From positions 1 through 38,789 of the forward strand of contig JAAFJW010000012.1 in the NCBI GenBank assembly GCA_013298995.1: a stretch of DNA of 38,789 nucleotides, read 5' to 3'. Both the position numbers and the translations under genes were made by a program. This document shows, piece after piece, positions 5,406 to 16,589 of this stretch (within the stretch, counting starts at the first letter, position 1; every line of letters starts with the position of its first letter). Below the pieces are notes generated by a model. The model made no database searches, had not been told where the DNA came from, and was given only the letters and a program-made list of their open reading frames with translations. The stretch is from Sphingobacteriales bacterium (GTDB lineage: Bacteria; Bacteroidota; Bacteroidia; Sphingobacteriales; Sphingobacteriaceae).

Positions 5406-6191
5406 TTAAAACCGTATTTTAAAATTTTCTTTACACCTTTCAGCTTTAAAAAAAACCAAGCCTATCCAAAACAAATCAATAGTAAGCGTAACCTGTGGGT
5501 GTTGTTTAATATGTTTCCAAGCATTTTGCATTCCACGGCTCCAGTAAATATCGTCAAAAACCAGCAAGGTATTTTTATGTACGTGTGGCAATAAGATATT
5601 AAAATAATCGATAGTAGCTTTTTCTTGATGGTTTCCATCAATAAAAACAAAATCTATTACAGCGTTTTCGGCTATAATGGCTGGCAGGTTATGGCCAAAG
5701 TCACCCACTTTTATACTTACATTATTAGCCTGTAATAGCTGTAAATTTTGTTGTGCTATGGCAGCCGTTTGTGGGCAGCCCTCCATCGAGATAATGCTAG
5801 CCAAAGGTGCAGCCCTGCTCATATAAGCAGTAGTAAGGCCAAGGCAAGTGCCCAGCTCGATAACTGTGTTAGGTTGATTTTGCTTTACCAAGCGATAAAT
5901 TAGCTGAGCAAGTTTTGGGGGTTTAAGTGCATTTTGGGCCAGTTGTTTAATTTGTTTTCGCCTATTGTTATTAATATGCGAGCCCGCTCCCAAATCGCTA
6001 ATAGTAATATAATTTGTATTTTTAAATAATTGATGGCGTAAGTTTTCTATTTCAGCGTAATCTGTATGAGACCCAAAATTATAAAACACCTTTTCAATTA
6101 ACTGATAAACAAAGGGAGAATGTACGCCGTGTAAAGTTTTAGCATTTTTTAAATGTTTAAGGTAATTTATAACAAGGTAAAAATTAATCAT
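5406..6191 (-). CDS. Class I SAM-dependent (O-)methyltransferase
   Basis: 261 aa; VIELGTCLGLTTAYMSRAAP (motif I), DFVFIDGNHQEKATIDYFNILLPHV. Confidence 0.85.
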   Translation of the reverse strand: MINFYLVINYLKHLKNAKTLHGVHSPFVYQLIEKVFYNFGSHTDYAEIENLRHQLFKNTNYITISDLGAGSHINNNRRKQIKQLAQNALKPPKLAQLIYRLVKQNQPNTVIELGTCLGLTTAYMSRAAPLASIISMEGCPQTAAIAQQNLQLLQANNVSIKVGDFGHNLPAIIAENAVIDFVFIDGNHQEKATIDYFNILLPHVHKNTLLVFDDIYWSRGMQNAWKHIKQHPQVTLTIDLFWIGLVFFKAERCKENFKIRF

Positions 6192-6251
6192 AAAAACAAA
6201 ATTAAAAAAAAAATGGTACTTAAATATTTACTACGGTTAAAATTTACACTC

Positions 6252-6541
6252 CGTTTGGCGGCCACCTATAATATTAATACACTAACCGAGCTTGAAAACA
6301 GCTACCAGCACATTACCAGCAAGCACTAAAAAAACAAAGCGAAACCATCGTTTAAATTACGCACACACCTCGTAAACCCAACAACACCATTATTTTTTTT
6401 AAGAAGCAACCCCCGCCATTCGTCTATTAACCCAATTCGCCCCAGCTTTACACTATACCCCGCCTCGCCCAAAAGCTCGGTCGGGGGTGCCGTTTCAATC
6501 TGGGCTAAAAACAAGGGTACGGTGCGTTTGGCGGCCACCTA
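6252..6541. repeat. Segment bounded by 17-bp direct repeats (6252-6268 and 6525-6541)
   Basis: cgtttggcggccaccta present exactly at both ends of a ~256 bp spacer. Confidence 0.7.
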
Positions 6542-6601
6542 AACCGTGTTACTTCCACCAACTATCCTTTTTATACATCTAAAAACTAAACTTTTGGAGT
6601 T

Positions 6602-6630
6602 GAAAATAGGCATTTTAAATGCCTATTTTC
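6602..6630. terminator. Perfect 14-bp-stem palindrome, possible terminator or structural element
   Basis: gaaaataggcattt-t-aaatgcctattttc. Confidence 0.45.
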
Positions 6631-6665
6631 TATCTAAAGCATTCGATTTAATATTGTATTTACAC

Positions 6666-7151
6666 TTATTATTTTAAATCTATAAAATTTATACGCCCAA
6701 ATTGTTGTATTGGTGGCTATTGTGAGGCTAAAAAAATGTAAAGGCTTTGCCTTTATTTATTTGCCACCAATTCACGAATTTTGCTGGCAAAAGAAATCTA
6801 AAACGCTATTTATCTGTTTGTTTAAGCCTTTTTACCGCAAAGCTAGCTGTATAAAAATACGCTGCAAGGTAAACCCGCATTAAAAAGCACCACCCTGCGT
6901 ACCTAAACCCGACAGTAGCGGATACCGGCCTTGCGCCTAAGGCCTGTGGGCGTATGAGCGGATGGCGGGGCTAGCCTTGGTGATGAAATGCTGGCCTTGG
7001 TTTTACAACATATTTTTATAAATTATGGGCTTTATGCGCTTGTATCTGTTTTATAGATAGCTGATTGTAAAAAATGGCATTAAGTTTTGATTAACCTATT
7101 TATTAGCTCCGAAACTTTAGTTATTATTATAAATCTATAAAATTTATACGC
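6666..7151. repeat. Segment bounded by 31-bp direct repeats (6666-6696 and 7121-7151)
   Basis: ttattattttaaatctataaaatttatacgc versus ttattattataaatctataaaatttatacgc, one mismatch. Confidence 0.8.
6908..6970 (+). ncRNA. Candidate structured intergenic RNA/element with paired AGCGGAT motifs
   Basis: cccgacagt-AGCGGAT-accGGCCTTgcgcctAAGGCCtgtgggcgtatg-AGCGGAT-ggcgggg; 6-bp GGCCTT/AAGGCC hairpin flanked by duplicated AGCGGAT and outer CCCG/CGGG complementarity. Confidence 0.4.
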
Positions 7152-8062: not shown

Positions 8063-8671
8063 TTATACACTTTTCATCTTTTTTAGCAAAGTTTCTATTA
8101 CTCGTGGGTAATGTAAGTGTTCTAATTGATGGCCTTTAAATTTTATCATTTCTAGGTCGTCTTTTTTATCGATTTTAAAATGTGATTGGTGTATTATTTC
8201 TCCATCGTCAAATTGTTCGTTTACAAAATGTATGGTAATGCCCGATTCGGTTTCTTTATTTTTTAAAATTTCCAAGTGTACTTTATCACCATACATACCC
8301 TTACCGCCATATTTGGGTAAAAGCGAAGGGTGAATATTTACTATTTTATTGGGATATGCTTTTAATAAGTAACTGGGTATTAACCATAAAAAACCAGCTA
8401 AAACGATAAAATCGATTTGCATATTGTCCAGTAATGTTAACATTTTATCGGCTTGCATAAACTCTTCCCTATCAAAAATATGGGTAGGTACTTCAAAATT
8501 ATCGGCCCGTTGTAACACAAAAGCATCGGGATTATTGGTTAGTACTAAAGCAACTTCGATGCTGTCGTTTTTTTTAAAATGCTCCATTATTTTTTGTGCA
8601 TTGGAGCCCGAGCCCGAAGCAAAAATGGCTATTCGTTTTTTCAAAATATTTTTATTGTGCTTGATTTTCAA
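8063..8671 (-). CDS. purN: Phosphoribosylglycinamide formyltransferase
   Basis: 202 aa; IAIFASGSGSNAQKI, IVLAGFLWLIPSYLLKAYPNKIVNIHPSLLPKYGGKGMYG. Confidence 0.93.
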   Translation of the reverse strand: MKIKHNKNILKKRIAIFASGSGSNAQKIMEHFKKNDSIEVALVLTNNPDAFVLQRADNFEVPTHIFDREEFMQADKMLTLLDNMQIDFIVLAGFLWLIPSYLLKAYPNKIVNIHPSLLPKYGGKGMYGDKVHLEILKNKETESGITIHFVNEQFDDGEIIHQSHFKIDKKDDLEMIKFKGHQLEHLHYPRVIETLLKKMKSV

Positions 8672-8793
8672 AGATAAAGTTTAGAATGCTTTTAGGAAAT
8701 CAATTATGAGATATTTTTAGCAAAATTGTGAAATAAAATCAAGGTTAGTGCATTTTAAATACGATATTGGTTTTATTTTAAAAAATATAAATC

Positions 8794-9561
8794 ATGAAAA
8801 TAGTACAATTTTTTTTTATCCAAGCAGTATTATTTGCTATCCTATTACAATCGGCCCCAGCCAAAAAATTAAAATATTATCCCCATGTAGTTACGCAAAT
8901 AACGCCCAGCAACATACACACAAGCTACAATACTTTATTAAACAAATACGTAAACAAACACGGAAAAGTTGATTATAAAAGTTTTAAAAACGAAATAACG
9001 AAGCTTCAAAACTACCTTAACTCGCTACAAATGGTTAATGTAAAAACATTGCCACAAAACGAACAATTGGCGTTTTGGATAAACGTATATAATGCCAACA
9101 CTATCTATCAGGTTTTAAGAAACTATCCTTGCACATCTATCAAACAAATTGATGATGGCAAAGTGTGGGATAAGCCTTTGCCTTATACATTTGATGGAGA
9201 AAAAATATCGTTAAATGAAATTGAACACCAAAAACTAATACAACAATTTAACGACCCTCGCATTCATTTTGCCATTAATTGCGCTGCGGTATCATGCCCA
9301 AAGCTAAGTAATATTGCTTTTACGGGGCAAAATGTGCAACAGTTACTTAACAGCCAAGCTATTTTATTTATCAATAACCCTGCACATAATTATATAAGTG
9401 ATAAAAAAATAATGCTTTCGCAAATTTTTAATTGGTATAAAGCCGATTTTGTAAAAACAGATGGCAGTGTACCAGCATTTGTAAATAAATATGCTAAAGC
9501 CAAAATCAACGAAAGTGCAAACCTTATGTATATGAATTATAATTGGGGCTTAAACGAATAA
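8794..9561 (+). CDS. DUF547 domain-containing protein
   Basis: 255 aa; LAFWINVYNANTIYQVL, HFAINCAAVSCPKL typical of DUF547. Confidence 0.88.
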   Translation: MKIVQFFFIQAVLFAILLQSAPAKKLKYYPHVVTQITPSNIHTSYNTLLNKYVNKHGKVDYKSFKNEITKLQNYLNSLQMVNVKTLPQNEQLAFWINVYNANTIYQVLRNYPCTSIKQIDDGKVWDKPLPYTFDGEKISLNEIEHQKLIQQFNDPRIHFAINCAAVSCPKLSNIAFTGQNVQQLLNSQAILFINNPAHNYISDKKIMLSQIFNWYKADFVKTDGSVPAFVNKYAKAKINESANLMYMNYNWGLNE

Positions 9562-9621
9562 TTATTTTTATCGCAGCAACTTATAATTAAACATTATATT
9601 TATCCGAAACAATGCAGCACC

Positions 9622-11754
9622 ATGTCCGATAATAAAAACAAAAACATAAAACAGGCTTTAGTACAACGCATTGCCGATATTTTCGACAAAAGCAAAAACA
9701 AACCGCTAAACTATAAACAATTAGCCGCTAAATTAAATATTAACGATACCATAGGCAAAAATGTGTTACAAGACACGCTAAACGACGAATTATTTAAAGG
9801 CTTAATTGTAGAAATAGAAAAAGGTAAATACCAATTACACGAAGTAAAAGCCTTTATATTTGGTAAAATAGATATGGCCGCCAATGGTTCGGCATTTTTA
9901 TTACCCGACGACGAGTTTGAAAAAGATATATTTATTGCCCCACGAAAGCTAAGAAACGCCCTACATGGCGACCGTGTAAAGCTACACGTATATGCCAACA
10001 GCCGTGGAAGCCGCAAAGAAGGCGAGGTGGTAGAGATTGTAACAAGGGCAAAAATGGAATTTACAGGTATTGTAAAACTGGCGCAACATTATGCCTTTTT
10101 TATACCCGACGACCGTAAAATGTTACACGATATTTTTATCCCTTTGGGGGATTTAAACGGTGCACAAAACGGCGATAAAGCCCTAGCAAAAATTGTAGAT
10201 TGGCCTGCTGGTGCCAAAAACCCCGTAGGCATAATTAAGGAAGTGCTGGGCCAGCAAGGCGAAAACAATACCGAAATGAACGCCATATTGGCCGAATATG
10301 GTTTCCCACTTTCGTTCCCATTAGAGGTAGAGCAAGAAGCCACACAAATAAGTATCGAAATTACGCCCGAAGAAATTGCCAAACGTAAAGATTTTAGAAA
10401 AATATTAACCTTCACCATCGACCCATTTGATGCCAAAGATTTCGATGATGCGATATCGTACAAAATATTAGAAAACGGCAATTACGAAGTGGGTGTACAC
10501 ATTGCCGATGTATCGCATTATGTAATTCCCGAATCGGATTTAGATAAAGAAGCTTACGAGCGTGGCACATCGGTTTACCTAGTAGATAGGGTGATACCTA
10601 TGCTGCCCGAAACGCTATCGAACGGTTTATGCTCGCTTAGGCCAAACGAAGAAAAATTATGTTTTTCGGCCGTATTTGAGTTAGATGCCGAAGCGCAAAT
10701 TAAAAATGAATGGTTTGGCCGTACGGTAATATATTCGGATAAACGCTTTGCTTATGAAGATGTACAAGAAATTATAGAAAACAAAACTGGGCTGTTTTGC
10801 GACGAAATTTTAAACCTCAATGCCCTAGCCTATAAACTGCGTGAACAAAAATTTAACAACGGAGCCATAAGTTTTGAAACCGCCGAAGTAAAATTTAAGC
10901 TCGATGAAAACGGAAAACCCATTGGCGTTTACACCAAAGAACGCAAAGATGCCCACAAGTTAATTGAAGATTTTATGTTACTGGCCAACCGCCGTGTGGC
11001 CGAGTTTGTGGCCAAAAAAGAAAAAGGCAAAGCCAAACTCACCTTTGTTTACAGGGCGCATGATGTGCCAAAGGAAGCTAGTTTAGAAAGTTTTTCGAAG
11101 TTTGCCGCAAACTTTGGTTATAAAATTTCGACCAAATCGGGTAAAGACACCGCAAAATCGTTAAACAAATTAATGTTTGATATTGAGGGGCATAAAGAAC
11201 AAAACGTATTAACCCAACTGGCCATACGCAGTATGGCAAAAGCCATTTACACCACCAAAATGAGCAGCCATTACGGTTTGGCTTTTGATTATTACACCCA
11301 TTTTACATCGCCCATAAGGCGTTACCCCGATGTAATGGTGCATAGGTTGTTGCAATATTATTTAGATGGCAACAAATCGGTAAATGCCGAGCATTACGAA
11401 AAAATGTGTGCCCACGCATCGCAAATGGAGAAAAAAGCCGCCGATGCCGAGCGAGCATCCGTAAAATATAAACAAGCCGAATACCTGCAAGATAATGTAG
11501 GGCAAAACTTTTTGGGCGTAATTTCGGGCGTTACCGAGTGGGGAATGTATGTAGAAATTATAGAAAACAAATGCGAAGGCATGATACGTTTGCGTGATAT
11601 TTCGGATGATTTTTACACCCTCGACGAAAAAAATTATTGCATTATTGGCCAAAAGAAAAAGAAAGTTTACCAACTAGGCGATGAGGTAAATATTAAAGTA
11701 AAACGAGTTGATTTGGCAAAACGGCAGATAGATTTTGCTTTGATAACGGGGTGA
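9622..11754 (+). CDS. rnr: Ribonuclease R
   Basis: 710 aa; RNB core (TIDPFDAKDFDDAISY, HIADVSHYV, YRAHDVP, HFTSPIRRYPDVMVHRLL) plus C-terminal S1 domain. Confidence 0.96.
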   Translation: MSDNKNKNIKQALVQRIADIFDKSKNKPLNYKQLAAKLNINDTIGKNVLQDTLNDELFKGLIVEIEKGKYQLHEVKAFIFGKIDMAANGSAFLLPDDEFEKDIFIAPRKLRNALHGDRVKLHVYANSRGSRKEGEVVEIVTRAKMEFTGIVKLAQHYAFFIPDDRKMLHDIFIPLGDLNGAQNGDKALAKIVDWPAGAKNPVGIIKEVLGQQGENNTEMNAILAEYGFPLSFPLEVEQEATQISIEITPEEIAKRKDFRKILTFTIDPFDAKDFDDAISYKILENGNYEVGVHIADVSHYVIPESDLDKEAYERGTSVYLVDRVIPMLPETLSNGLCSLRPNEEKLCFSAVFELDAEAQIKNEWFGRTVIYSDKRFAYEDVQEIIENKTGLFCDEILNLNALAYKLREQKFNNGAISFETAEVKFKLDENGKPIGVYTKERKDAHKLIEDFMLLANRRVAEFVAKKEKGKAKLTFVYRAHDVPKEASLESFSKFAANFGYKISTKSGKDTAKSLNKLMFDIEGHKEQNVLTQLAIRSMAKAIYTTKMSSHYGLAFDYYTHFTSPIRRYPDVMVHRLLQYYLDGNKSVNAEHYEKMCAHASQMEKKAADAERASVKYKQAEYLQDNVGQNFLGVISGVTEWGMYVEIIENKCEGMIRLRDISDDFYTLDEKNYCIIGQKKKKVYQLGDEVNIKVKRVDLAKRQIDFALITG

Positions 11755-11830: not shown

Positions 11831-12532
11831 ATGAAAAACATTATCACGTTCACAATCTGCTTCTTTATTTTGCTATCATTTTCTTGTAAAAAAAACATAC
11901 CAGAACCAACAAGCCCTCTAAAACAAGTGGTTGATAGTTTAGAGTCGAACAATTTTGATTACATATCTTTTAAATTTAAAGATAAAATTTATATATGTAA
12001 TCAAACACATAGCTCCGGTAATAGCAATCAAGATGCAAATAGAAAGGTTACTATAAGTAGCGATGGGGCTAGAAATTGGGCTGGAAATATAGATTCTGTT
12101 TTATATGCTCAGAGTTACGGCATTTCTAGCAAAGACCGACAGGTAAATTTTGAATTTATAATTTTCAAAAAATATGCAAAAAAAGACTGTGTATATAATT
12201 TTTTATATTACCCCAAAAAAATTAGTGACTTATTTAATACAGGTGAGTATAAATTCCCAGTTGATTTCGGCAGTCAAAATACATTAGATGGAGTTGTAAT
12301 AAAACTCAGGAATGGTAATCAATTTTACTCAACAACAAATGAGGATTTAACGTGGCCAGAACTTAAATTTAAACAAGAAACTCAAAATAACTCTAAATTT
12401 AATATTGTAAAAATAGAAAAAAACATGAAATATGGTTTTCATTATATTGAAGTAACTTTCAATTGCCAAATGTTTGATGAAAATGGAGTATCTACAACAT
12501 TAGAAAATGGATTTATGCGGTTAGAAATTTAA
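11831..12532 (+). CDS. Hypothetical lipoprotein
   Basis: 233 aa; signal sequence plus lipobox (FILLSFSCKK); no recognised domain. Confidence 0.65.
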   Translation: MKNIITFTICFFILLSFSCKKNIPEPTSPLKQVVDSLESNNFDYISFKFKDKIYICNQTHSSGNSNQDANRKVTISSDGARNWAGNIDSVLYAQSYGISSKDRQVNFEFIIFKKYAKKDCVYNFLYYPKKISDLFNTGEYKFPVDFGSQNTLDGVVIKLRNGNQFYSTTNEDLTWPELKFKQETQNNSKFNIVKIEKNMKYGFHYIEVTFNCQMFDENGVSTTLENGFMRLEI

Positions 12533-12636
12533 TCCATTTCACACATCTACGGGTTTTGTTTTCTTTCCATTCTCCACAAAAATACCCTGTTTTTTGTTAG
12601 TCTGTTTGTAATTACAGTTTTTTAATTTTAAATTCG

Positions 12637-12668
12637 TAACCATTGTATAACGTTAAACAACTTGGTTA
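12637..12668 (+). promoter_or_regulatory. Inverted repeat reaching the methyltransferase start codon (candidate operator or RNA hairpin)
   Basis: taaccattgt (12637-12646) and acaacttggtta (12657-12668), ending on the A of ATG at 12668. Confidence 0.35.
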
Positions 12669-13903
12669 TGAATAATTATATTACACTCTCAGAAGCGTCT
12701 GAACTTGTTGGTAAAAGTAAAGAAACGTTAAGGCGTTGGGACAACGAGGGTAAATTATCTGCTGTTAGAGAGCCAATGAGTAACTACAGAGTTTACCGAA
12801 AATCAGAGGTTTTGTCCCTTTTTTCTAATTTTATTAACAATCCAATAGAAACGGTTTCTAACTTTGTTGAGCCCGAAAACGAATATAAAGTTTTAGAGTT
12901 ATTTGCTGGGGCTGGTGGTTTAGCTGTTGGGATGGAGAAAGCTGGATTAAGATGCGTTGCATTAAACGAAATTGACAAATGGGCTTGCCAAACATTGCGT
13001 AATAATCGCCCCAATTGGAAAGTTTTAGAAGGTGATGTAAAATCCTTTGATTTTTCCGAATATCACAACAAAGTTGATGTGGTAACAGGTGGTTTCCCTT
13101 GCCAAGCATTTAGTTATGCAGGCAAAAAATTAGGTTTAGCCGATGCTAGAGGAACACTTTTTTATGAGTTTGCTAGGGTTGTAAAAGAGGTAAATCCTCC
13201 GATTTGTATTGGCGAAAATGTGCGTGGTTTATTAAGCCACGAAAACGGAAAAACCTTGCAAGGGATGATTTCAATTTTAGACGAAATTGGTTATAATGTT
13301 GTTCCTGTGCAAGTTTTAAAAGCCATTAATTTTAAAGTTCCACAAAAAAGAGAAAGACTAATTGTTGTTGGAATTAGAAAAGATATTGATATTAATTACG
13401 AATATCCAAAACCTTACAATAAAATTTATAACCTAACTGATGCGTTGAAAAAAAGTGATTTATTTGATTGTGTGGTACCAAAATCTGCTGGTTCAAAATA
13501 TCCTAAAAGTAAAATTGATGTTTTAGATTTAGTGCCACCAAAAGGTTATTGGCGTGATTTGCCTTTAGATATTCAAAAAGAATTTATGGGTGGGAGTTTT
13601 CATCTTGGTGGTGGTAAAACAGGTATTGCAAGGCGCATTGGCTGGGACGAACCTTGCCTAACATTAACTTGCAGCCCAGCTCAAAAACAAACTGAAAGAT
13701 GTCACCCCGATGAAACTCGACCATTTACCATTCGTGAATATGCAAGAATTCAAACATTTCCCGATGATTGGGATTTTGCTGGTTCGATTGCTCAACAGTA
13801 TAAACAGATTGGAAATGCTGTTCCTGTAAATTTAGGCCGAGAAGTTGGCTATTCAATCATAAAGTTCTTAAATCAATATTACAGTTTGTCGAAACCCAAA
13901 TAA
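12668..13903 (+). CDS. DNA (cytosine-5-)-methyltransferase with N-terminal MerR-like/excisionase-type HTH
   Basis: ~411 aa from ATG 12668; HTH TLSEASELVGKSKETLRRWDNEGKL; C5-MTase motifs LELFAGAGGLAVGMEKAG, GGFPCQAFSYAGKK, ENVRGLL, QKRERLIVVGIR, KQIGNAVPVNLG. Confidence 0.94.
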   Translation: MNNYITLSEASELVGKSKETLRRWDNEGKLSAVREPMSNYRVYRKSEVLSLFSNFINNPIETVSNFVEPENEYKVLELFAGAGGLAVGMEKAGLRCVALNEIDKWACQTLRNNRPNWKVLEGDVKSFDFSEYHNKVDVVTGGFPCQAFSYAGKKLGLADARGTLFYEFARVVKEVNPPICIGENVRGLLSHENGKTLQGMISILDEIGYNVVPVQVLKAINFKVPQKRERLIVVGIRKDIDINYEYPKPYNKIYNLTDALKKSDLFDCVVPKSAGSKYPKSKIDVLDLVPPKGYWRDLPLDIQKEFMGGSFHLGGGKTGIARRIGWDEPCLTLTCSPAQKQTERCHPDETRPFTIREYARIQTFPDDWDFAGSIAQQYKQIGNAVPVNLGREVGYSIIKFLNQYYSLSKPK

Positions 13904-14643
13904 TAGCTATAATTTTCAAAAGTAATTTGATCTAAAATACTTCGTTTGGATATATTTGTTTCTGTTTTAATTTCGTCTAGTGCCGAATTATATTTGATTA
14001 ATTTTTCATCCTCAATTGAGTTTAGATAATCATTTATAGCAAAAGGTAATTTTTTGTAAAGTTGAAAAAGTGCATCCTTTTGCCCCGAAAGCAATGCGTA
14101 AAATTGGTCACCCGAAATTTTGTAAACTCGGCTATGGCTATATTCTTTTCCGTTGATTTCTCCTTTCCAAAGTTCGTTAAAACTATTTTTTGCCAAAATT
14201 TGGACCCAATAACATTTTGCTTTTTTGTAGTCGTCTGCATATCGAGCCAATTTTTGAAACAAAGCTTCGGCCGAACTGCTATTCATTGTGTTATGCTTGT
14301 TTTTGATGTCGGCAAACAATGTGTCGTCTTTTGCTTTTATATCAAAACCACTCAAATTTCCAACTTTAAAACCATCAATCCCACCTAAAATTTGTTCATG
14401 AAAAGTTCCGATAGAATTATTTATTGATTTATCAATTTGGCGTAAAATTTCGGCTTGTATAAGACTTTCTTCGTCAATATCGTTGAATTTCGAGTCGAGA
14501 GTCAGCTTGATAGTGTCCACTTTGTTACTGTAAAAACTACCCTTAGTAATATTTTTTTTAGCTTTTAAATACGATTTATGAAGCCCTGCAATGCAAACCA
14601 GCAAATGTTTGTCCGAAATAAAATCTAAGTATTTATTTTTCAT
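13879..14643 (-). CDS. Type II restriction endonuclease, Eco47II/Sau96I-like (GGNCC-type predicted)
   Basis: 254 aa; FHEQILGGIDGF, GFDIKAKDDTLFADIKNKHNTMNSSSAEALFQKLARYADDYKKAKCYWVQIL, reminiscent of the RE_Eco47II family; adjacent to C5-MTase. Confidence 0.8.
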   Translation of the reverse strand: MKNKYLDFISDKHLLVCIAGLHKSYLKAKKNITKGSFYSNKVDTIKLTLDSKFNDIDEESLIQAEILRQIDKSINNSIGTFHEQILGGIDGFKVGNLSGFDIKAKDDTLFADIKNKHNTMNSSSAEALFQKLARYADDYKKAKCYWVQILAKNSFNELWKGEINGKEYSHSRVYKISGDQFYALLSGQKDALFQLYKKLPFAINDYLNSIEDEKLIKYNSALDEIKTETNISKRSILDQITFENYSYYLGFDKL

Positions 14644-14684
14644 TAAAATAAAATTTTCTTTAATAAACCAGCCCCCCTAATCTA

Positions 14685-16589
14685 CTACACATACGCCCTC
14701 GCATTTTTACCTTCCATCCAGTTAATATATGCTTTATTTACCACTTTATTGCCGCCTGGTGTGGGGTAATTGCCCGAAAAATACCAATCGCCCAAATGGT
14801 TGGGGCAAGCAGTATGCAAGTTTTCGAGGCTTTGGTAAATTACTTCTACTTTGGCTTGTACTTCTTTTGGCGTAATAATTTGGGCAATTTTTGCTGATAT
14901 TTCTTCGGGGCTAAAAGGTGCATAAATTTCTTTTACATAATTGATAACGTCTTCTTTGGCTGTATTGGCTTGGGCTTTACATTTATCATATACATCAAAC
15001 AATACGTTTTCTCGGCCAGTTTCTTTAAGCAATTGTACAGCAGCTTCAAAAGCTACAAATTCGCCCATTTTGCTCATATCAATACCATAACAATCGGGGT
15101 AACGTATTTGCGGAGCCGATGAAACAATAATAATTTTTACAGGGCCTAACCTATCAAAAATGCGTAAAATACTTTGTTTAAGCGTAGTACCACGTACAAT
15201 AGAGTCGTCCATGGCTACCAAAGTATCTACATTGCGGGTTATTAGGCCATAGGTAGTATCATAAACATGGGCTACCATATCGCTACGTTCGGCATCTTGG
15301 GTAATAAAGGTGCGCATTTTGGCATCCTTTATGGCCAGTTTTTCTACCCTTGGGGTTAGGTTTAAAATTTTATCAAGCTCTTCATTGGTTAAATTACTGC
15401 TATGGTTTAGCAGGGCTTCACGCTGCGTTTGCTTGGTGTAGGCATGTAAACCTTCTACCAAGCCGTAAAACGAAACCTCGGCGGTATTGGGTATGTAGGT
15501 AAAAACGGTATTTTCTATATCGTGGTTTACGGCTTGTAATATTTTGGGGCACAGCAGTCTGCCAAGTTTTTTGCGTTCGCGGTATATATCGGCATCGCTA
15601 CCTCTCGAAAAATAAATCCGCTCGAACGAGCATGATTTTTGTACGGTAGGTTTCCTAAACATTTCTTCCGAAAATGTACCATCTTTTTTGATAATTAAAG
15701 CATGGCCAGGTTTTATCTCTTTTACTTGCCCTATTTTGATATTAAAAGCAGTTTGCAAAGCTGGGCGTTCGGATGCGGCAACCACAATTTCGTCATCATG
15801 GTAATAATATGCTGGCCTTATGCCTGCGGGGTCTCGCAATACAAAAGCATCGCCATGGCCAAAAATACCGCTAATGGTATAACCGCCATCCCACGATTTT
15901 GCCGATTTTTTTAGGATTTTTATCACATCCAAATTATTGGCTATTAAATCCGAAATCTCGATATTATCGTAACCTTCTTTTTTAAAATAATCAAAAAGTA
16001 TCTGATTTTCGTCGTCAAGGAAATGGCCTATTTTTTCGAGTACGGTAACGGTATCGGCTCGTTCTTTGGGGTGTTGGCCAAGGTCGTATAGCTGTTGCAA
16101 TAGCTCATCAACATTGGTCATGTTAAAATTACCAGCAATTACAAGGTTGCGGCTCATCCAATTATTTTGCCTTAAAAACGGATGACAGGCCTCAATGCTA
16201 TTTTTTCCATGTGTACCATAGCGCAAATGGCCTAGCAATACCTCGCCTGTAAAACTTATGTTTTCTTTAAGCCACTCGGCATCGGCAAGTAAATGTGGGC
16301 TTTCTTTTTCTACAGCGGCAAAGCGTTTCATCACGTACGAAAAAATATCTTGTACCGCATTTTTTTCCATCGAGCGGTGCCTGCTTATGTAACGATTGCC
16401 TGGCTTTACATCTAATTTTATGGTAGCTATCCCTGCCCCATCTTGCCCTCGGTTATGCTGTTTTTCCATCAATAAATATAGCTTGTTGAGGCCGTAAAGT
16501 GCCGTACCATATTTTTGCTGATAAAAAGAGAGGGGTTTTAAAAGGCGGATAAATGCTATGCCACATTCGTGTTTAATAGAATCGCTCAT
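14685..16589 (-). CDS. purF: Amidophosphoribosyltransferase (long ~630-aa form)
   Basis: 634 aa; N-terminal class-II glutamine amidotransferase (HECGIAF, NRGQDGAGIA, HLRYGTHG) and PRPP-binding loop (VAMDDSIVRGTTLKQ). Confidence 0.85.
   Translation of the reverse strand: MSDSIKHECGIAFIRLLKPLSFYQQKYGTALYGLNKLYLLMEKQHNRGQDGAGIATIKLDVKPGNRYISRHRSMEKNAVQDIFSYVMKRFAAVEKESPHLLADAEWLKENISFTGEVLLGHLRYGTHGKNSIEACHPFLRQNNWMSRNLVIAGNFNMTNVDELLQQLYDLGQHPKERADTVTVLEKIGHFLDDENQILFDYFKKEGYDNIEISDLIANNLDVIKILKKSAKSWDGGYTISGIFGHGDAFVLRDPAGIRPAYYYHDDEIVVAASERPALQTAFNIKIGQVKEIKPGHALIIKKDGTFSEEMFRKPTVQKSCSFERIYFSRGSDADIYRERKKLGRLLCPKILQAVNHDIENTVFTYIPNTAEVSFYGLVEGLHAYTKQTQREALLNHSSNLTNEELDKILNLTPRVEKLAIKDAKMRTFITQDAERSDMVAHVYDTTYGLITRNVDTLVAMDDSIVRGTTLKQSILRIFDRLGPVKIIIVSSAPQIRYPDCYGIDMSKMGEFVAFEAAVQLLKETGRENVLFDVYDKCKAQANTAKEDVINYVKEIYAPFSPEEISAKIAQIITPKEVQAKVEVIYQSLENLHTACPNHLGDWYFSGNYPTPGGNKVVNKAYINWMEGKNARAYV

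Follow-up and report, generated by a model that had tools for sequence, protein, structure and literature searches.

How the nuclease is delayed when a restriction-modification (R-M) system enters a new host is a long-standing question, best known from C proteins and from a few enterobacterial methyltransferases (MTases) with a fused helix-turn-helix (HTH) domain. In the EcoO109I system, the genes for the restriction endonuclease (REase, R) and the MTase (M) are convergent. The same orientation is seen in Csp231I and in the cassette described here, which lies within a 38,789-nucleotide stretch of DNA from a Sphingobacteriales bacterium (the whole of the analyzed stretch is referred to as the window). 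In EcoO109I and Csp231I, R is preceded by a C gene, whereas the EcoO109I-type loci that we recovered (L101 to L106) have an HTH-fused MTase instead. EcoO109I also appears to have a GGNCC core and, judging from structure prediction, the REase fold in common with the window REase. With the Eco47II R-M system, the cassette shares the REase family (PF09553, GGNCC) and a C5-MTase partner; the plasmid-borne Eco47II-family relatives that we examined (30 to 36% identical) are tandem or divergent, in contrast to the window clade, which is convergent and overlapping and carries a conserved promoter element.

Regulatory MTases with an N-terminal HTH fusion that repress their own genes have been described for Ecl18kI, SsoII, and EcoRII (PMC12707154, PMC3695355). 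As in the window cassette, an HTH region of about 70 residues is fused to the N terminus of a C5-MTase and there is a site in the MTase promoter, which in our case is a candidate site. Autorepression is known for these three enzymes, whereas we infer it for the window MTase, and their HTH is C-protein-like, whereas that of the window MTase is of the MerR type. In Ecl18kI and SsoII, furthermore, the M and R promoters diverge and overlap, with the operator placed between them to the benefit of the REase gene; the window genes, in contrast, converge, and their REase promoter is far from the MTase promoter. Kpn2I, which belongs to the convergent class, expresses its REase from a weak constitutive promoter and represses the MTase promoter (PMC6237814, PMC5333194), resembling the logic expected here, but it uses a separate C protein, which the window cassette does not have. 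BldC-type regulators have a MerR-type winged HTH without a coiled coil or effector domain, like the MTase HTH; BldC, however, is a stand-alone protein that occupies direct repeats in a head-to-tail manner (PMC5859096), while the window HTH is fused to an MTase. We found no report of MerR-fused C5-MTases, or of convergent R-M systems with a fused HTH, in the open-access literature. Compared with the known regulatory MTases, the novelty is thus the combination of a MerR-type HTH, convergent genes, and a remote REase promoter.

Open reading frame (ORF) analysis places a C5-MTase and an Eco47II-family REase tail-to-tail in the window. The C5-cytosine DNA methyltransferase (12668 to 13903, forward strand) has 411 amino acids from the ATG at 12668 to the stop at 13903, with an in-frame TTG at 12662 as another possible start (413 amino acids). 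Its catalytic domain (PF00145, E = 6.6e-83) spans residues 73 to 399, and the catalytic Pro-Cys of motif IV (P144 and C145; 13097 to 13102, forward strand) is invariant in a 33-sequence alignment, as are the other MTase motifs, including PCQ and ENV. The nearest solved structures are M.HaeIII and M.HhaI; a structure prediction made for the MTase is of low confidence (mean pLDDT, 37.5). The PADLOC MTase_II model matches the protein as well, and since this Type II MTase model aligns over residues 3 to 404, HTH-bearing relatives are already represented in the PADLOC library. Ahead of the catalytic domain, residues 6 to 43 (12683 to 12796, forward strand) form a MerR/excisionase-type HTH (PF00376 MerR, E = 1.9e-7, above the cut-off; PF13411, E = 7e-6; PF12728, E = 2e-5). 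This region matches MerR, MerR_1, HTH_17, and excisionase models only, and no C-protein-like HTH was found among the profile matches of the N terminus.

The REase (254 amino acids; 13879 to 14643, reverse strand; ATG at 14643, stop at 13881 to 13879) matches PF09553 RE_Eco47II with an E value of 1.4e-83 (279.9 bits versus a cut-off of 25.9, profile positions 1 to 201 of 202) and PADLOC REase_II with an E value of 2.9e-47. Its PD-(D/E)XK-like core, the GFDIKAKDDTLFADIKNK region with D101 and D112-I-K114 (14302 to 14343, reverse strand), has D101 and K114 invariant and always D or E at position 112 across 31 sequences. The predicted fold matches EcoO109I (1wtd; E = 3.5e-5, probability 1.00, 11% identity). 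The two genes overlap by 25 bp (13879 to 13903), from the REase stop at 13881 to 13879 to the MTase stop at 13901 to 13903. No ORF for a separate C protein was found in the cassette, and its two genes leave no room for one. The initial annotation had proposed a convergent Type II R-M pair with these coordinates, strands, and overlap, an HTH-fused MTase, an Eco47II-like REase with this core, and the lack of a C-protein gene, and all of this holds. Judged by its sequence, the cassette is a genuine two-gene Type II R-M system. It is adjoined by a probable lipoprotein gene (11831 to 12532; 233 amino acids) that had no homologue in 20 relatives.

With respect to specificity, the wider MTase family adjoins REases of the Eco47II, EcoO109I, SinI, and TdeIII families, which recognize GGNCC, RGGNCCY, GGWCC, and GGNCC, respectively. 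Together with the REase family and the EcoO109I-like predicted fold, these partner families give good support to a predicted GGNCC-type site, the specificity to which family resemblance had already pointed in the initial annotation. We counted GGNCC usage in 1.1 Mb of the organism's own genome (743 sites), where the observed/expected ratio of 0.54 was the lowest among the 16 NN-N-NN quasi-palindromes, with CCNGG also low (0.61). The ratio was 0.74, 0.75, and 0.87 in three relatives without the REase and 0.84 in another carrier. We therefore do not take GGNCC avoidance as proof of activity, since the low ratio is confounded by that of CCNGG and is not repeated in the other carrier. The same 1.1 Mb show a very strong avoidance of GATC (0.14), CCGG (0.16), and CGCG (0.23), suggestive of other restriction pressures, and further C5-MTase relatives are encoded on contigs C149, C87, C65, and C177 of this genome.

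When genomes were scanned, one per species, at least 573 relatives of the REase were confirmed. Of these, the 80 best matches (72 to 90% identical) were taken as loci; they are mostly from Bacteroidota, with one Lentisphaerae bin and one Limnohabitans bin. Eco47II-type REases were present in 6 of 396 Bacteroidota genomes, indicating that they are widespread but sporadic. Our comparison set comprises 84 loci with close homologues, the window being counted as one of them. The tail-to-tail arrangement is found in 83 of the 84, with L083 being divergent, and the convergent genes overlap in 81 (by 25 bp in 72, 28 bp in 8, and 22 bp in 1). An extra ORF of about 92 to 96 codons lies between MTase and REase in L015 and L019 (about 5763 to 6060), on the MTase strand, with an overlap of about 4 bp between its stop and that of the REase; the L015 copy had no Pfam match.

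MTase and REase distances correlate across loci (r = 0.74; best permutation, 0.27), yet locus pairs with matching flanks are few (7 of 2775 and 9 of 2850), indicating that the mobile unit is the gene pair itself, about 2 kb in length. As far as comparison of these sequences goes, the cassette moves between Bacteroidota genomes as a two-gene unit. We did not find a clean empty site in congeners because rnr and the gene at 14685 to 16589 are not adjacent in most relatives. In another relative, an Eco47II gene directly adjoins rnr (G413 contig C100, about 8460 to 11346), and the window, too, has rnr in the vicinity of its cassette, which may reflect an insertion hot spot or a coincidence. No Eco47II homologue was found in the annotated phage collection. 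An IMG/VR contig (L272, 3001 to 4623) carries the promoter element and an HTH-MTase (76% identical), together with the first part of an Eco47II-type gene in tandem.

We consider it likely that the cassette is a mobile GGNCC-type R-M system whose MTase represses its own promoter through the fused HTH, acting on a conserved element and replacing a C protein. The MTase would methylate one cytosine of the GGNCC-type site, and the convergent REase would cut sites left unmethylated. The MerR-type winged HTH would bind an element extending over the start codon and the transcription start region of its own gene, blocking RNA polymerase and keeping the amount of MTase at a set point. A host new to the cassette would lack the MTase, so that the promoter would be open and the MTase would be made first, its accumulation then shutting the MTase gene. 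A separate promoter, apparently unregulated, would serve the REase, so that the fused HTH would take the place of the separate C protein of convergent systems such as Kpn2I. We infer the binding by the HTH, the sequence specificity of the R-M system, repression rather than activation, and the order of expression. The MTase autoregulation suggested by the initial annotation gains backing from a conserved promoter element that appears to track the HTH.

The predicted MTase promoter (12605 to 12636, forward strand) consists of TTTG at 12605 to 12608, a 20-nt spacer, and TAAATTCG at 12629 to 12636, and fits the Bacteroidota sigma consensus TTTG/TAnnTTTG (PMC7366714). The TA, TT, T, and G of the -7 box are conserved at 96 to 100% in 81 distinct upstream sequences. 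Upstream sequences differ among loci before about -35, and the block that follows is near-identical: TAnnTTTG, then TAACC, TGT, TAA, GTT, AA, TGGTTA, and the start codon. Within it, on the forward strand, we delimit a candidate operator of the MTase HTH from inverted repeats and conservation (12632 to 12673), with arms ATTCGTAACCA (12632 to 12642) and TGGTTATGAAT (12663 to 12673) around an inner near-palindrome, TTGTATAACGTTAAACAA (12643 to 12660). The conserved 32-bp core over the MTase promoter and start is GTAACCNNTGTNTAANGTTNNNNAANNTGGTT (12636 to 12667). TAACC and GGTT arms are present in 80 of 82 loci, at a spacing of 22 in 78 of those 80. As a pattern, the core has five exact matches in 396 Bacteroidota genomes, all 0 to 6 bp from this MTase clade, and the reversed control pattern has none; it occurs once in the window and never in shuffled sequence, even with three mismatches allowed. 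The two-fold symmetry of the element is marginally above that of shuffled sequence (90 of 2000 shuffles are equally good), and we therefore dropped it as the chief argument for an operator, which is carried by the arms rather than by overall symmetry. An Rfam search gave no match.

Autorepression has to be weighed above all against an ordinary Type II R-M system, an improbable reading but the one that survives best, in which the block is the promoter and translation start of a recently spread cassette and the HTH has another role, for example, in assisting DNA binding by the MTase. Both the start codon and a -7 box of the Bacteroidota type do lie within the block, the correlated distances show that all Eco47II cassettes are related by descent, and the N-terminal region of SsoII-like MTases is known to affect methylation as well (PMC3695355). 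Against this, the block is more conserved than MTase third codon positions (mean identity between loci is 0.82 for the element, 0.87 for the -7 box, 0.51 for third codon positions, and 0.32 far upstream), and its conservation extends 31 bp beyond the -7 box with the arms at fixed spacing. GGTT is, moreover, retained in loci with a start codon shifted upstream (ATGGTT; L060, L068, and others, with some in Flavobacteriaceae), which points to selection at the DNA level.

The element also stays with the MTase when the REase partner and the orientation differ, and it is linked exclusively to this MTase clade. In six sampled genomes (L101 to L106), HTH-fused MTases of the same clade (69 to 79% identical) are paired tail-to-tail with an EcoO109I-type REase (PF14511), with overlaps of 4 to 49 bp, and the L107 MTase has a distant Eco47II protein as its tandem partner. 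All seven of these loci have the element or, failing that, its TAACC/GGTT dyad over the start codon, although it is clearly degenerate in L104 and L106, and it is also present in the divergent L083 and in L272. Since Eco47II- and EcoO109I-type REases share a fold, these swaps are between distant relatives and not between unrelated proteins. Vsr-like mismatch endonuclease ORFs, identified by eye, lie divergently beside the HTH-MTase in L107 (948 to 1436, reverse strand) and L106 (2785 to 3252, forward strand). The MTase of the Lentisphaerae locus L027 (GWF2_38_69, about 5744 to 6877) lacks residues 10 to 48 or so, the HTH core, in frame, and has no Pfam match to an HTH. As a further point against an ordinary R-M system, the element is lost along with the HTH (absent in a search with up to three mismatches), and the L027 REase and 25-bp overlap are intact. 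This is a single event, and the phylum in question may have promoters of another type, which could themselves account for the missing element; the event thus supports the coupling of HTH and element without proving it.

Slightly less probable again is a regulatory role for convergent transcription, in which strong early transcription of the MTase would suppress the REase by collision or antisense RNA until MTase autorepression released it. EcoRI and Eco29kI are known to be under antisense control (PMC4824078, PMC12707154), and the prevalence of tail-to-tail, overlapping genes among close cassettes would suit it, as would an overlap in which no terminator-like hairpin was found. The reappearance of convergence with EcoO109I-type REases, at different junctions, is suggestive. 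However, third codon positions of the MTase and REase coincide in the overlap and both vary freely between loci, and the locus comparison found no conservation there beyond that expected from coding; we therefore reject an extra constraint or a terminator in the overlap. The overlap is lost in L015 and L019 and absent in the divergent L083 and the tandem L107 and L272. Free wobble positions and such losses indicate that descent from a single cassette, together with coding constraint, is enough to account for the constancy of the junction, and the antisense or collision control proposed by the initial annotation accordingly gains no direct support. A combined version is just as doubtful: autorepression through the MerR-type HTH would lower head-on MTase transcription into the REase gene, so that one operator would govern the MTase and the REase alike with no need of a C protein, and the junction would be kept, or rebuilt with EcoO109I-type REases, because the circuit needs it. 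If this were true, one fused protein would run the whole R-M timing circuit.

It is very unlikely that the HTH-MTase activates its promoter instead of repressing it, or that it acts on the REase promoter too. C proteins are known to activate or repress according to their level (PMC12707154), but a site downstream of the -7 box that overlies the start region, such as that of the element, is typical of repression, and no operator-like element was found before the REase gene in the window or in the REase upstream regions of relatives. The REase start is about 2 kb from the MTase promoter element. A weak candidate -7 box, TAGATTAG (14677 to 14684, reverse strand), lies 41 nt before the REase start, and TAnnTTWG occurs within 80 nt of the REase start in 39 of 78 relatives, versus 6.7 in shuffles, with the boxes clustering at -32 to -35. 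As this box is weak and the window REase starts 41 nt after a same-strand upstream gene (14685 to 16589), read-through from that gene is possible. Finally, a decayed or inactive remnant is highly implausible: the sequence comes from a metagenome-assembled genome, and the 743 GGNCC sites remain (modification of the genome would allow them to be kept), but both frames are intact, the catalytic residues are invariant, and strong purifying selection acts over more than 80 loci.

The preferred reading, autorepression by an HTH-fused MTase, thus concerns a cassette that is widespread in Bacteroidota (at least 573 confirmed REase relatives) and that has a precisely defined candidate operator. The natural HTH-deletion variant (L027) and the natural REase swaps make both MTase autoregulation and the role of convergent transcription directly testable, with the 42-bp candidate operator and simple reporters sufficing as test material. 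R-M barriers limit genetic work in Bacteroidota.
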